A stretch of 58,635 bases of DNA, taken from Verrucomicrobiota bacterium. Lineage in GTDB: Bacteria > Verrucomicrobiota > Verrucomicrobiia > Limisphaerales > UBA8199. The position numbers and the translations under genes were made by a program. Positions 8,172-50,646 of the stretch are shown piece after piece. The notes below the pieces were generated by a model. That model searched no databases. It saw only the letters and a list, made by a program, of their open reading frames with translations, and was not told the origin of the DNA. Position 1 is the stretch's first letter, and every line of letters starts with the position of its first letter. The stretch is from the NCBI GenBank assembly GCA_029974925.1, contig JARKQH010000206.1, positions 1-58,635 on the forward strand, given 5' to 3'.

Positions 8172-8258
8172 GGGTTTGGCCCGCCCCCCACGGCGCCGGG
8201 GCCCGGCGTCAAGACCGGGATTGCCTTGGCGGCACGGGCAGGCCACATTGAACGCGCT

Positions 8259-9665
8259 GTGCCTGCGGACACCAAACAACCGTTGCTCCAGCGGATTCCG
8301 TCGCTGACCGATCTGCTCAAGCGGGCGGCCATCCAGCAGTGGCTCGAGACCCATCCTCACACCCTGGTCACCCACGTGCTGCGGCAGGCCGCGGCCGAAC
8401 TGCGCGACCGCATCCTTGACGGCAGCCTGGCCGACCCTGCCGCCATCACCGCCGAGGCCGTCGAGCGGCGGGCCGGAGCCCTCCTGGCGGATCAAACCCG
8501 GCCCCGGATTCGGGCCGCCATCAACGCCACCGGCATCCTCCTTCACACCGGCTTGGGGCGGGCCGTGTTCCCCGAGAGCGTGGTGGACTCGATTGTGCCC
8601 GCCCTCAAGGGCTATTGCACGCTGGCGGTCCACCCGGAATCGGGCGAACGGGTCGAACGCGACGAGCTGGTGGAGGACCTTCTGGCGGAACTGACCGGGG
8701 CGGAAGCGGCCACGGTGGTGAACAACAACGCGGCGGCGACCCTGCTGGTGCTGGCCGGGCTGGCGGCGCAGCGGGAGGTCATTGTTTCGCGCGGGCAGTT
8801 GATTGAAATTGGCGGCTCCTTCCGCCTTCCCGAGGTCATGGCCCAGAGCCAGGCGCGGCTGGTCGAAGTCGGCGCCACCAACCGGACGCACCTCGCCGAT
8901 TACCAACGCGCCATCACCGCGCAGACCGCCGCCCTCATGCGGGTGCATCCCAGCAATTACCGCATCGTCGGCTTTGCCGGGACCCCCTCGTTGGCCGAGC
9001 TGGCCGCCCTCGCCCGCCGTCACAACTTGCTGCTCATTGACGACCTTGGGGCCGGCGCGCTGGTGGACTTGCGCCAGTTTGGCCTGCCGCAGGAGCCCAT
9101 CGTCCGGGAATCCATCGCGGCCGGCGCGGACATCGTGTTGTTCAGCGGCGACAAATTGATCGGCGGCAGCCAGGCGGGCATCCTTGTCGGCCGCCGCCCC
9201 TTGATTCAACAACTGAGAAAGCACCCGCTGATGCGGGCGATGCGCGTGGACAAAACCTGTCTGATGGTGCTCGAGCGCACCTTGCACCTGTTCCGGCATC
9301 CGGAGCGGCTGCGCCGCGAGCATCCGCTTTACCGCATGATTTGCCAGCCGTTGGAAACGGTTCGCGCCCGGGCGGTGGCCTTGCAGGCGGGGCTCGCGGC
9401 GCTGGGGTCCGCAGCCAGAGTCGAAATCGCCGACAGCGTGGCCTATCTTGGGAGCGGCTCGCTGCCCACGGAAGCCATCCCGAGTGTGACGGTCGGGCTG
9501 CAGGCCCGCGACGTGGGGGCCGGCGAGCTGGCCCGGCGCTTGCGCCTGGACGAAGCCTGCGTGTTCAGCCGGATTGAATCCGACCAGGTCAAACTCGACA
9601 TGAGAACCGTCGCCGACGAGCAGGTGCCGGCCATTGTCCAGGCCGTCCGCCGGGCCATCTCATGA
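8259..9665 (+). CDS. selA: L-seryl-tRNA(Sec) selenium transferase
   Basis: SelA is a pyridoxal-phosphate enzyme that converts seryl-tRNA(Sec) to selenocysteinyl-tRNA(Sec) using selenophosphate. The protein shows IPSLTDLLKR near the start, INATGILLHTGLGRA, and the PLP-lysine motif FSGDKLIGGSQAG. From the chosen GTG at 8259 the lysine is residue 299, close to Lys295 of the E. coli enzyme. A TTG at 8226 would add 11 residues. Length is 468 residues, normal. selB follows 37 bases downstream in the same direction, so the two are probably co-transcribed. Together they show that this organism decodes some UGA codons as selenocysteine. Confidence 0.96.
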   Translation: MPADTKQPLLQRIPSLTDLLKRAAIQQWLETHPHTLVTHVLRQAAAELRDRILDGSLADPAAITAEAVERRAGALLADQTRPRIRAAINATGILLHTGLGRAVFPESVVDSIVPALKGYCTLAVHPESGERVERDELVEDLLAELTGAEAATVVNNNAAATLLVLAGLAAQREVIVSRGQLIEIGGSFRLPEVMAQSQARLVEVGATNRTHLADYQRAITAQTAALMRVHPSNYRIVGFAGTPSLAELAALARRHNLLLIDDLGAGALVDLRQFGLPQEPIVRESIAAGADIVLFSGDKLIGGSQAGILVGRRPLIQQLRKHPLMRAMRVDKTCLMVLERTLHLFRHPERLRREHPLYRMICQPLETVRARAVALQAGLAALGSAARVEIADSVAYLGSGSLPTEAIPSVTVGLQARDVGAGELARRLRLDEACVFSRIESDQVKLDMRTVADEQVPAIVQAVRRAIS

Positions 9666-9702
9666 GCGCTCGCCGGCCGCGCGCCCCCCTGGCTTTGTCC
9701 CC

Positions 9703-11661
9703 ATGACCTCCGCCCGAAGACACATCATGCTCGGCACCGCCGGTCACGTGGACCACGGGAAGACCGCCTTGGTGAAACTCCTGACGGGGTGCGACACCGA
9801 CACCTTGACCGAGGAAAAGGAGCGGGGCTTGACCATAGACCTGGGCTTTGCCCCCTGCCGGCTGGCGGACCAGCGCATTGTCGGCGTGGTGGACGTGCCG
9901 GGCCATGTGGACTTCATTCGCAACATGGTGGCCGGGGCGCATGGCGTGGACGTGGTCATCCTCGTGGTCGCGGCCGACGACGGCATCATGCCCCAAACCC
10001 GGGAACACCTCCAAATCCTCACCTTGATGGGACTCCGCCATGGTCTGGTGGCCTTGACCAAGATTGACCTGGTCGAGCCGGCGCGGCGCGACGAGGTCGC
10101 CGCCGAACTGCGGCAGTTGCTGGCCGGGACGTTCCTGCGGGAGGCGCCCATCTGTCCGATGTCAAACCTCACCGGCGAGGGCTTTGAAGGTTTTTTTGAC
10201 GCCCTGAACCAGGTCGTGAACGGCTGTCAGGAACGGCCCGTGAGCGGGGTGTTCCGGCTCTGGGTCGAGGACGTGTTCTCGCTGCGCGGGCCGGGGACGA
10301 TCCTCACCGGCATTCCCACCGGCGGAATCGTGCGCGCGGGAGAATCGCTGGCGTTGCTGCCCGGCGAGGTGACCGGCCGGGTCCGGCGCATGCAGGTTTA
10401 CGGCGAAGACGCCGTCGAAGGCCGGGCCGGCGAATGTGTGGCGCTCAATATCCCCGAATTGGACCCCCGCCACGTCCGGCGGGGCATGCTGCTTTGCCCG
10501 CCGGAAACGCTCTCCCCCGTGGCGATGGCCGAGGCGGAGCTGCAATTGCTGCCGGACCTCAAGACCCGGGTTCCGGACCTGGTCCGGATTCAGCTTCACG
10601 TCGGGACGGCCTCCGTGCCGGCCCAGGTGGCGATGCTGGAAACCCCGACGATGAGCGGCGGGCAGCGGCAGATGGTCCAGTTGCGTCTGGCCGAGCCGCT
10701 GCCGGTGATTCCGGGCGAACGCTTTGTGGCGCGGGCGAATCTGGGCCAGGGGGACCATGCCGGTCTCGCGACCATCGGCGGCGGACGGATTCTGGGCACG
10801 ACCAACGTGCGGCTGCGGCGCCGCCGGCCGTGGACCCTCGAGGCCCTGGCGGCGCGGCGCGAGGCGCTGGATTGTCCCGCCGCCTGGTGCGAGTTGATGC
10901 TGCGTGAATCCCGCGAGCCCCTGTCGCTGTCCCGGCTTCAGCAAAAGTGTCTCCTGCGCCAAGAGGAGTTGAACGCGTTGTTGAATCCGCTCGAGGCGGG
11001 CGGCCGCGTGATCCGGCTCCCCGGCGGCCTGTGGACTCATCGTCAAACCGTGGATCAGGCGGCCGCCAGGCTGCTGGGGATTGTCCAGTCCTTTCACGCC
11101 GCAAATCCACAACGCGCCGGCCTTGAAGCGCAGGAATTGTTTGCCCGGGCGCGGGCCAACCCCGTCGTGGGCACATTGGCCGTCGAGTCGCTGATCCAAA
11201 GCGGGAAACTCGAGCGCTCCGGCACGGTGCTTGCGCGCAAGGGTTGGAGCGCCCGCCTTACCGATCGCGACGCGCAACTGTGCGAGAAGCTGGTGGGTCT
11301 GATGCGCCAGGCCAAATGGTCGCCGCCCTCCCCCGGCGAGCTGGCCGTGGCGCTGAAGGAGCCGTTGGAACGGGTCGGCAAGATGATTCGCTTGCTGACG
11401 GACCGTGGGCAGTTGGTCCAGATTGAGAGGGACCTCGTGCTCCATCCCGAGGCCCTCGAAGCCGCGCGCCAGACGGCCCTTGGCCTCTTTGCCAAAAAAC
11501 CCGTGTTCTCCACCATGGAATTCCGCGACGCGCTGGGCGTCAGCCGCAAATACGCCGTCCCCATCCTGGACTATTTCGACCGCATCCGGCTCACCGTGCG
11601 CACCGGGCACGACCGCACGCCGGGTGTCGAAGCCCGCAAGGCGCTGCAAAAGCCCGCGTGA
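9703..11661 (+). CDS. selB: Selenocysteine-specific elongation factor
   Basis: SelB is the dedicated GTPase that carries Sec-tRNA(Sec) to ribosomes paused at UGA and reads the SECIS hairpin through its C-terminal winged-helix domains. Visible GTPase motifs are GTAGHVDHGKTALVK (G1), DVPGHVDF (G3) and TKID (G4). Beta-barrel domains follow to about residue 340. The remaining 300 residues contain several winged-helix segments ending in FRDALGVSRKYAVPILDYFD...RTGHDR, which is characteristic of SelB. The ATG at 9703 gives 652 residues and starts just before the first strand; an ATG at 9634 inside selA is less likely. No tRNA(Sec) gene was found beside it. Confidence 0.95.
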   Translation: MTSARRHIMLGTAGHVDHGKTALVKLLTGCDTDTLTEEKERGLTIDLGFAPCRLADQRIVGVVDVPGHVDFIRNMVAGAHGVDVVILVVAADDGIMPQTREHLQILTLMGLRHGLVALTKIDLVEPARRDEVAAELRQLLAGTFLREAPICPMSNLTGEGFEGFFDALNQVVNGCQERPVSGVFRLWVEDVFSLRGPGTILTGIPTGGIVRAGESLALLPGEVTGRVRRMQVYGEDAVEGRAGECVALNIPELDPRHVRRGMLLCPPETLSPVAMAEAELQLLPDLKTRVPDLVRIQLHVGTASVPAQVAMLETPTMSGGQRQMVQLRLAEPLPVIPGERFVARANLGQGDHAGLATIGGGRILGTTNVRLRRRRPWTLEALAARREALDCPAAWCELMLRESREPLSLSRLQQKCLLRQEELNALLNPLEAGGRVIRLPGGLWTHRQTVDQAAARLLGIVQSFHAANPQRAGLEAQELFARARANPVVGTLAVESLIQSGKLERSGTVLARKGWSARLTDRDAQLCEKLVGLMRQAKWSPPSPGELAVALKEPLERVGKMIRLLTDRGQLVQIERDLVLHPEALEAARQTALGLFAKKPVFSTMEFRDALGVSRKYAVPILDYFDRIRLTVRTGHDRTPGVEARKALQKPA

Positions 11662-47726: not shown

Positions 47727-49062
47727 AAGGATACCGTTGCGGCCGGCTCAACAGGCGATTGGCCTGCTCGTCTCCCACCACCTCCTGCCGGGTCCCGTCC
47801 CAGACGAGTTTCCGGCCCAGGAGATAGGCGAGGTTGCCCAGGTTGCAAAGCGTCGCGGTGCGATGGCCGATCTCGATGTCAACGGCGGGCCGCAGATGCC
47901 CCTCGCGAATCGCTTTGAACCAATCGGCCTTGTGATTCATGTTGAAGTCTTCGTATTCGTCCGTGCGGTACACTTCCTGCCCCCCAGGCGGCAGCTTGAA
48001 ATGGATGGCTTCCGGATTGGCCGGCCGGTAGCCGCCCTCCCATTCCAGCACCAAATGACCGTTATCGCCCCAGAAAACATTCCCAAATTCGGTCTGCCCC
48101 ACCTTGTTCCCGGGCTGTCCCCACTCCAGCGTCCAATCGGGGTCTTTGAACTGGTAGATTACCTCCATCTCGACCGGACAATCCCAGAGGCCCCGGGCCG
48201 GAGGCCGCCCCTTCGCCTCCACGGTAAACGAGGTCTGATGATCCGCATTCATGCACCACAGGATGGTGCTGAACTGGTGCGCGCCGCGGTCCCGAATCTG
48301 GCCGCCGCCTGATTCCATCAACCAGCGGAAATGCGCGGGCTGATAGCGGAGATTGTGGGGGCGCCAGGGCAGCGGCCCCAGCCACAGGTCCCAATCCAGT
48401 CCCTCGGGTGGGGGGCTGTCCGGCACCGGCTTTTCATCCACGGGGTTTGCATAGTGCCAACAGGAGACCCTTCGCACCTTGCCGACAATCCCGTTGCGAA
48501 TGGCGCGGCAGGTGTGCCACGCGCCCTTGGCCGTTCGCGCCTGGGCGCCGACCTGCACCGCCACCTTGTTGGCCCGGGCGGCGGCCACCATCGCCTGGCC
48601 CTCCCGCACCGTCACCGACGCGGGCTTTTCGACATACACGTGCTTGCCCGTCTGGCACGCATGCACCGTCTGGACCGCGTGCCAGTGGTCCGGGGTCGCA
48701 ATCACCACCGCGTCAATGTCCTTTCGCTCGAGCACGTACCGGTAGTCCCGATAGGGAGTCACGCCCGCCCCGGCATTCTCCACCGCCGCCTCCAGCCGGT
48801 TGTCGTCCACATCACACACCGCCGCCACCCGCACTTTCCCCTCCTGCTGAAAACGCATCATGTTGGCCAGGTGCGTCATCCCCATGCCTCCCACACCGAT
48901 GTGCGCAATCACCAGCCGCTGGTTGGCTCCAACCCGTCCCGGGTTCCCCAGAACCTCCGGGGACGCCAGGCCGAATGACACCGCCCCGCCCGCCAAAGCG
49001 GTCACTTTGAGAAAACTGCGACGGGTCAGACCGTCGCCTCTGGCGGTCACAACGCGACTCAT
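47716..49062 (-). CDS. Exported Gfo/Idh/MocA oxidoreductase with Tat signal
   Basis: A 448-residue protein. The N-terminus contains LTRRSFLKVTALAGGAVSFG, a twin-arginine signal. The Rossmann domain is VIAHIGVGGMGMTHLAN...AAVCDVDDNR, with the EKP motif in KHVYVEKPASVTVREG. The C-terminal domain (SGGGQIRDRGAHQFSTIL) is typical. It probably oxidises sugars in the periplasm. It lies 63 bases after the true end of the selenoprotein candidate, on the same strand, and is coupled to the HEAT gene. Confidence 0.85.
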   Translation of the reverse strand: MSRVVTARGDGLTRRSFLKVTALAGGAVSFGLASPEVLGNPGRVGANQRLVIAHIGVGGMGMTHLANMMRFQQEGKVRVAAVCDVDDNRLEAAVENAGAGVTPYRDYRYVLERKDIDAVVIATPDHWHAVQTVHACQTGKHVYVEKPASVTVREGQAMVAAARANKVAVQVGAQARTAKGAWHTCRAIRNGIVGKVRRVSCWHYANPVDEKPVPDSPPPEGLDWDLWLGPLPWRPHNLRYQPAHFRWLMESGGGQIRDRGAHQFSTILWCMNADHQTSFTVEAKGRPPARGLWDCPVEMEVIYQFKDPDWTLEWGQPGNKVGQTEFGNVFWGDNGHLVLEWEGGYRPANPEAIHFKLPPGGQEVYRTDEYEDFNMNHKADWFKAIREGHLRPAVDIEIGHRTATLCNLGNLAYLLGRKLVWDGTRQEVVGDEQANRLLSRPQRYPYVL

Positions 49063-49125: not shown

Positions 49126-50646
49126 TTACAGGTTTGCCTCGACGGGCTTGCTGACCGTTTGCAGCGCTCCGAGGTCAAAATCCACCTTCACGCTGACTTT
49201 CCCGCCCACGAGATTCTTTGGTACTCGCCATGAGTACGAGCAGGTGCCCCCTCAGCCAAACTCCAGGTTGCCGTTCGCCAACCGTTTACCTTTGGCGTCG
49301 GTGACCGTGAACACCGGTTTTGGCGGGTCTTCTCGAAACTGTTGGCCGGTGCCGAAGACCGAATAAACCTCCCCGGCGGCGCCCACAACCCGCGCACCGA
49401 TGCGGAGTACGAAATCGGAGTCCGAGGCGGTTTTTTTGGGGATGCTGGTGGTGGCCGAACGTTTGTCGGCAGTGAGCTCGATTTCAAGGGGCGCGCCGCA
49501 GCGGAGTTGGGCCGGCGTGACCGCGTGGAAGCGGAGGGGTTCTTGGAAGAGTCGTTGGGAGCCCGAGACCATGACGGGCTGGCGCCCAGGACTTTCTCCC
49601 AGGAGGGTGCAGGCATAGAACCGGTATTGGCCGGGCGGCACCAGAATCTTGCCGCCGGCCGCGCCAGCGCGAAGCAGTTGCCAGTTGCCATCGGCTTGCT
49701 GCCAGCCCAGGCTCACGTTGCGAACCTCGTTGCCGCGGGGCTCGAGGGTCACCTCGGCCAGCGGCTGGGTCCACGGCTCGACGCGCAGGGAGCGGCACTG
49801 GGGGCCCAGCTCGACCCGGAGCGGTCGGGCGCCCGTGTAGAGGAGGGGTCCGAACGGCGCGGCCTCGGCTTGGAAAGGGTCGCTTTCAAATGCGCCGGAC
49901 CCATCCGCATCCACCAGCAGACTGTCGCCGGGGCGGAAGAACCAGTTGGTTTGGGCGCTGCTCTTGTAGAGCTGGGGCTGGGCCGCCTCGCCCAGGCTCA
50001 GGCTGGCATCCCCGTCGTACACGCCCATTTTGACCTTGGCGCCCGCCACTTCGACCGTGGTGTCCAGGTACCAGCCGGCTTTGAGCCGCAACTGGCCGAT
50101 CAGGAGGGCCAGCATCTGACCGTTGGCGGACCGGAGTCCGCTGATGGCGGCGCGGTTGTAAACATGCAACTGGGCGTGGTAAACCGGCCGCGCGCCCGGA
50201 AACAACCCCTCGACTGCCAGCTCGATCGGCCCGAACAAGGCGGACTCGGTCGTCGCGGAGGAGGTGGGACGGCGGTCCGTCGGGAGGGGCACGCGCCCCA
50301 CCACGGGGTCATCGGTCAAATCCCCGTTCCGGTTTGCGTCCACGATCAACCGGTCATAACCCTTTCCCTTGCCCTCGGACTCGTCCAGCCGGAAAACGCA
50401 CAGCGTCTTGCCCGCACCGGTGCGCCATTCGCCATACAGCGCCTGCGGCGAGGCGGCCTTCGGCTCCCGCTTGATGCCCGCCGCCTTGGCCGGCCGCAAC
50501 ATGGCGGAAATCCCGGAGCCGCCCGGGAAGGCCATCACCTCTTTGGCGGGAACGGTCCGAAACTCAAGGGGGAACTCTTCCGCGGCGGCCAGGCACATCG
50601 TCATGCCCAGTGCCGGCGCCAGCCAACCCACGGTAATTCGTGTCAC
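49126..50646 (-). CDS. Candidate selenoprotein: secreted protein with in-frame UGA as Sec465
   Basis: The GTG at 50646, 6 bases after AAGGAA, gives a signal peptide (RITVGWLAPALGMTMCLAAA) and a beta-rich protein with Asp-rich calcium-like motifs (VDANRNGDLTDDP; VDADGSGAFESDP). A TGA occurs at 49254-49252 after NLEFG. Reading it as Sec continues 41 codons, GGTCSYSWRVPKNLVGGKV and on to SKPVEANL, to a TAA at 49128-49126. The tail has alternating hydrophobic strand sequence and looks like the end of a folded domain. Sec465 and Cys469 form a U-x3-C pair, as in redox motifs. SelA and SelB are encoded in this window. If the TGA were a real stop, the product would be 464 residues, ending at Gly464. 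It likely heads an operon with the dehydrogenase and HEAT genes. Confidence 0.75.
49222..49254 (-). promoter_or_regulatory. Candidate bacterial SECIS hairpin after the UGA
   Basis: Nine bases after the UGA the message can fold UGCUCG (49242-49237) with CGAGUA (49227-49222). If the innermost G-C pair opens, the loop begins GU, as in SelB-bound loops. An alternative stem is GUACUC (49237-49232) with GAGUAC (49226-49221) and loop AUGGC. Loop distance from the UGA (15-20 bases) is compatible with bacterial SECIS spacing. Confidence 0.5.

Follow-up and report, generated by a model that had tools for sequence, protein, structure and literature searches.

The locus

The window, by which is meant the whole stretch of 58,635 nucleotides that was analysed, carries on its minus strand a gene that opens with a GTG at 50646, behind the ribosome-binding-like sequence AAAGGA, and runs through 464 codons to a TGA at 49252-49254. 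Downstream of this TGA the same frame continues with 41 sense codons (GGTCSYSWRVPKNLVGGKVSVKVDFDLGALQTVSKPVEANL) before it ends in a TAA at 49126-49128, and the end extended in this way lies 63 bases from the next gene, which starts at 49062. Reading of the minus-strand frame confirms the in-frame TGA and the coding tail that the initial annotation had described, and its numbering (Sec465, Cys469) and the 63-base gap are correct. The SelA and SelB genes that it had placed in the window both score above the curated cut-offs (Table 1).

Table 1 Features of the selenoprotein gene and of the Sec machinery in the window
Feature	Coordinates	Strand	Basis
Whole putative selenoprotein gene, 506 residues with Sec465; GTG start, TAA stop	49126..50646	-	
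Signal-peptide-like N-terminus, residues 1-22	50581..50646	-	Sequence inspection and hydrophobic stretch; no signal-peptide program
N-terminal all-beta region, residues 23-381, with DANRNGDLTDD motif	49504..50580	-	AlphaFold model, alignment
C-terminal Ig-like Sec domain, residues 382-506	49126..49503	-	Model; kept in relatives
UGA codon, predicted Sec465	49252..49254	-	TGA in 93/95 pattern-selected and 146/148 profile-selected sequences
Cys469, putative Sec partner in UGGTC	49240..49242	-	Kept by most members; L131, L132, L165, L166 lack it
SECIS-like hairpin, stem GUACUC/GAGUAC, loop AUGGC	49221..49237	-	Comparative evidence
selA	8226..9665	+	TIGR00474, 526.7 bits, cut-off 267.9
selB	9634..11661	+	TIGR00475, 306.5 bits, cut-off 242.25

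The motif of the N-terminal region (residues ~103-113) resembles the acidic loop of an EF-hand (DxNxNGDLTDD) and possibly binds calcium. The loop is present in most of the subtypes that have an N-terminal region.

Relatives and the codon at the Sec position

Relatives were retrieved without use of the Sec codon. To avoid bias, the genomes of ~85,000 species were scanned with the pattern TC[SAT][YH]SWRVP, which is taken from behind that codon. The scan gave 79 loci from Verrucomicrobiota, Planctomycetota, Hydrogenedentota, Sumerlaeota/BRC1 and Lentisphaerae, together with single Omnitrophota and Riflebacteria MAGs; most genomes in the comparison are MAGs. TGA occupies the Sec position in 93 of the 95 occurrences selected by the pattern and Cys in none, the two exceptions being a gene in which Sec has moved by one residue (L076) and a degenerate copy (L060). 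When the Sec position was set to X, profile searches returned exactly one TGA in 9/9, 43/45 and 24/24 matches, and over all loci collected TGA is found there in 146 of 148 profile-matched segments, again without a single Cys. Matches occur in 31 of 293 genomes of the same order, with one TGA in every match to the Sec region; a single family of small genomes is the exception. A second gene of the same genome (contig C296) contains the identical EFG-UGA-GGTCSYSWRVP followed by ~280 residues of membrane domain, and a third (C106) reads FEFG-UGA-GGVCTLSWREP.

More than 100 relatives conserve the tail and the membrane domains of 270-320 residues that follow the UGA, and the codons behind the UGA are under purifying selection (dN/dS 0.08-0.38 in five close pairs). 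The initial annotation had expected relatives with either Cys (GCGGTCSYSW) or Sec at this position and a matching tail, and had regarded a tail without similarity anywhere as a refutation. The tail has many relatives and these conserve the UGA, but the anticipated Cys forms did not appear, either in profile or protein searches of ~1,040 genomes or in the pattern scan, a result that is bounded by those searches. Cys homologues aligned to the UGA are the usual criterion for the discovery of selenoproteins, although they do not strictly define them. A UGA that is conserved without Cys forms is the stronger and more unusual evidence for Sec.

The family is not uniform around this codon. The gene with the displaced Sec (L076:4832) encodes GUGASTC, and its hairpin apparently lies three bases farther away to match. 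Four members (L131, L132, L165, L166) retain the UGA and have lost the Cys of UGGTC. A subfamily with the sequence UDGTCGYSWRVP (L065, L070, L096, L107) often has two or three tandem Sec genes beside a membrane-type gene of the family. No member was found on viral contigs.

Six genomes, all from the family f32, have relatives without the UGA and possess neither SelB nor tRNA-Sec. Where the C-terminus is covered, these proteins retain the tail as well as the N-terminal part, while UGGTC is gone and QDFLGWWWQIP replaces EFGUGGTCSYSWRVP. Homologues from SelB-less species that stop at exactly the UGA would have spoken against a selenoprotein; here the loop is dropped and the tail is kept. Judged from these sequences, loss of Sec decoding accompanies loss of the loop and not its replacement by Cys.

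A conserved hairpin behind the UGA

The conserved stem pairs 49237-49232 with 49226-49221 around a loop at 49231-49227. It begins 14 bases after the UGA, which corrects the distance of 9 bases given in the initial annotation. With 6 bp, a 5-nt loop and 20 nt from UGA to loop it fits the bSECIS model, which allows a stem of 4-16 bp, a loop of 3-9 nt and 16-37 nt between UGA and loop (PMC13188914). GUACUC-RUGGC-GAGUAC or close variants of it are found at the same distance after the UGA in 94 distinct sequences. A further criterion for bacterial selenoproteins is a G at the first or second position of the apical loop. This loop is AUGGC in the window, and about half of the members have GUGGC, or a UGG triloop when an extra G-C pair forms.

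Rfam, at gathering and at relaxed thresholds, reports nothing relevant at the UGA. The folding energy of the hairpin alone is not significant, so that the case for the hairpin rests on covariation and codon use. Across 82 sequences 99.6% of cells are paired with 11 double changes, and none of 500 shuffles is as good. The Tyr codon in the stem is always TAC and never TAT. Among 87 diverged sequences, Tyr TAC is matched with Val GTA in 73 and His CAC with Val GTG in 11, in addition to two U-G pairs. GTA accounts for 2% of the Val codons in genes of the window and for 85% of those in the hairpin, and the corresponding values for CGA among Arg codons are 3% and 94%. Divergent members keep 6/6 pairs with other stems (GGCCAC/GUGGCC, GGCUAC/GUAGCC, GUAUUC/GAAUAC), as does a divergent member from the window's own genome (GCUCUC/GAGAGC), and four further divergent members have a hairpin that is shifted in register. 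As read from the alignments, the compensatory changes, which include silent Val positions, are the mark of selection on the RNA that is independent of the protein.

Sec machinery and its co-occurrence with the family

The genome that contains the window has all of selA, selB, tRNA-Sec and selD. Its tRNA-Sec scores 70.7 bits, in agreement with ARAGORN, and its SelD (L143, C108:7318-8256) has an in-frame TGA and thus itself contains Sec, which makes this known selenoprotein a positive control within the same genome. A second selD, without a TGA, lies on C426 (L144).

SelB exceeds its cut-off in 80 of the 293 same-order genomes. It is present in 16 of the 18 genomes with UGA-type matches versus none of the 13 whose matches are all of the non-UGA kind (p=5e-7; p=2.7e-8 for the association over all 293), although related genomes are not independent observations. 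The two UGA-type genomes that lack SelB are 57% and 75% complete. In the wider set tRNA-Sec was detected in 26 of 32 family genomes as opposed to none of the six genomes with Sec-less orthologues, and three of the 32 showed neither SelB above the cut-off nor tRNA-Sec. Genes of the family adjoin tRNA-Sec or selB in several genomes. One planctomycete contig (G682:C183:22826-33185, L148 region) has a tRNA-Sec surrounded by four UGA-containing genes of the family.

The readthrough ORFs themselves end in TGA in 61 of the 110 readable cases, followed by TAA (30) and TAG (19). TGA therefore still acts as a true stop and the codon is not reassigned.

Structure, genomic neighbourhood and possible function

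The AlphaFold model of residues 23-506, built from 75 aligned sequences, is all-beta with a mean pLDDT of 91.7 and a pTM of 0.89. Its last ~120 residues are modelled as a sandwich of Ig/Fn3/MG type, for which VIA comparisons reach Z 10 without a specific match, and within this sandwich Sec lies in a turn or loop before a strand. A relative of the C296 type was modelled with the same domain and seven membrane helices, and its comparison with the PDB gave no clear match. Foldseek returned no confident specific relative for either model, and nDsbD is not among the matches listed, which excludes nothing. For the Sec domain of the second model, the fold that matches best is that of the sulfur carrier SoxYZ (E 0.075), which is not significant and serves as a lead only. 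A sequence-profile search of the PDB gave no match. Pfam likewise has no match for the window protein; run on nine relatives and 51 members of A6 as well, it found no DsbD-type family in any of these proteins, and three weak matches among the A6 members, each in a single protein, were judged to be due to chance.

A membrane polyferredoxin with a Fer4_5 domain is encoded in the flanks of 23 of the 79 loci versus an expected ~0.4%, a value derived from the three Fer4_5 genes in the window's own genome. On contig C270 of that genome (L142 5250-6821) tRNA-Sec is followed by a gene for such a polyferredoxin. In L020, L025 and L028, which come from other genomes, related NGDLTDD N-terminal regions appear, by eye, to be fused not to the Sec domain but to a thioredoxin domain of the TlpA type. 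Directly downstream of two family genes lie similar secreted proteins of an unknown family (QWLEYHTSA in L099:5116-6324, QWLQYRVSA in L139:3035-4198) that have no Pfam match.

Sec-x-Cys spacing is typical of redox sites. The most likely function, favoured with some reserve, is an extracytoplasmic selenol redox site formed by Sec-x3-Cys; this role is inferred from general Sec chemistry and context, and the activity itself is uncertain.

Interpretation

More than 140 relatives preserve the tail, the UGA and the hairpin, which puts the observation far beyond chance. The UGA at 49252-49254 is very probably decoded as selenocysteine (probability about 0.95), a reading drawn from sequence comparison, with no evidence from selenium or tail peptides. 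The conserved UGA, the hairpin and the machinery support the view of the initial annotation that the gene encodes a UGA-read-through selenoprotein of an unrecognised family, which is found neither in the current inventory nor in NCBIfam. The system of SelA, SelB, tRNA-Sec and SelD would insert Sec under the direction of the hairpin. The product would be an all-beta protein bearing a signal peptide, with the UGGTC loop in its C-terminal Ig-like domain. Outside the cytoplasm the Sec selenolate may serve as a redox or nucleophilic site, for which Cys469 would usually be the resolving partner in a selenenylsulfide. In many relatives the Sec domain is attached to a seven-helix membrane part, and the membrane polyferredoxin that is encoded close by is a candidate for the supply of electrons.

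Sec could also be incorporated and act mainly as a ligand or carrier site for metal(loid)s or soft metals in a secreted binding protein, and not as a redox couple with Cys469. This is the less likely function by a good way but stays possible because some members lack the Cys, and secreted Ig-like proteins with one Sec as well as the weak resemblance to SoxYZ are compatible with it. Conservation of the Cys in most members, its spacing from Sec and the frequency of the polyferredoxin neighbour all argue for the redox couple.

Insertion of another amino acid, by near-cognate suppression with Trp or Arg or by reassignment, is highly improbable. The tail would be produced in this case too and the hairpin would be a selenium-independent stimulator of readthrough, but this leaves unexplained the co-occurrence with SelB and tRNA-Sec and the family genes that adjoin tRNA-Sec; the Sec-decoding relatives have no Trp or Arg codon at the site, one degenerate copy excepted, and TGA remains a stop in the same genes. 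An ordinary stop, by which the protein would end at Gly464 as in the standard table-11 reading and the downstream frame would be a relic or chance, can hardly be upheld against the conservation of tail and membrane domains, the purifying selection behind the UGA and the SelB-less orthologues that retain the tail in one open frame. Codon reassignment as such is rejected by the TGA stops of many of the same genes, and a frameshift within the gene or a sequencing error by the recurrence of the UGA in more than 100 independent contigs.

Decoding of the UGA as Sec would define a large selenoprotein family, often with several genes per genome, from phyla that selenoproteome surveys have hardly covered. 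Its near-invariant hairpin, in which compensatory changes are clear, also offers a good natural data set on the rules of bacterial SECIS elements. The family also raises the question of which chemistry truly requires selenium. A wider and tentative proposal, not quite favoured over its negation, is that the domain is an ancient extracytoplasmic redox domain of PVC-type phyla with an obligate need for selenium that Cys cannot replace, which together with the polyferredoxin and the seven-helix anchor would form an undescribed route of electron transfer and may help to retain Sec decoding.

Comparison with known systems

The 2026 inventory lists 119 families of prokaryotic selenoproteins, and neither a motif of the UGGTC type nor the present family is among them (PMC13188914, Table 1). 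The paper on planctomycete selenoproteins, as far as its accessible part goes, names other families, and an earlier listing in a supplement cannot be excluded (PMC4807772). The proteins almost certainly form a family of secreted selenoproteins, from bacteria of several phyla, that has not been listed before. The deep-Sep paper of 2025 states that Cys homologues now seem to exist for every known selenoprotein and that its filter would remove those without them (PMC12013277). The present family appears to break this rule, and since no Cys version was found, methods that rely on Sec/Cys pairs would miss it. 'Hypothetical protein DG' (NF049953) resembles it in a short motif, GUxG, with Sec next to Gly, but DG has Cys homologues (PMC12013277), and neither its model nor any other in NCBIfam matches any of 75 family members.

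With the bacterial selenoproteins that depend on SelA, SelB, SelC, SelD and a bSECIS the family shares the in-frame UGA, a stem-loop that lies within the coding sequence at the spacing of a bSECIS, the full machinery and the co-occurrence with SelB. It differs in that no Cys homologue was found, in the unusually strong sequence conservation of its hairpin and in a fold that is Ig-like and not thioredoxin-like. MG-type domains of alpha-2-macroglobulin (A2M) and Fn3-like beta-sandwich domains are similar in structure (model residues 363-484 superpose on a domain of E. coli A2M with Z 9.5, rmsd 2.0 and 75 aligned), but they have no Sec or redox loop and many Fn3/Ig domains score alike. One Sec-less sequence (L164) is an MG-like match, and MG2 (PF01835) in L054 stays below its cut-off (13.9 bits against 32.8, E 0.074).

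The N-terminal domain of DsbD is a periplasmic Ig-like redox domain. The Sec domain is like it in its modelled Ig-like fold, in a predicted extracytoplasmic loop with two chalcogens, whose redox activity is inferred, and in the junction of some relatives to a membrane domain. It is set apart from DsbD by the UGGTC motif in place of a C-x5-C pair, by the presence of Sec and by a different membrane part.
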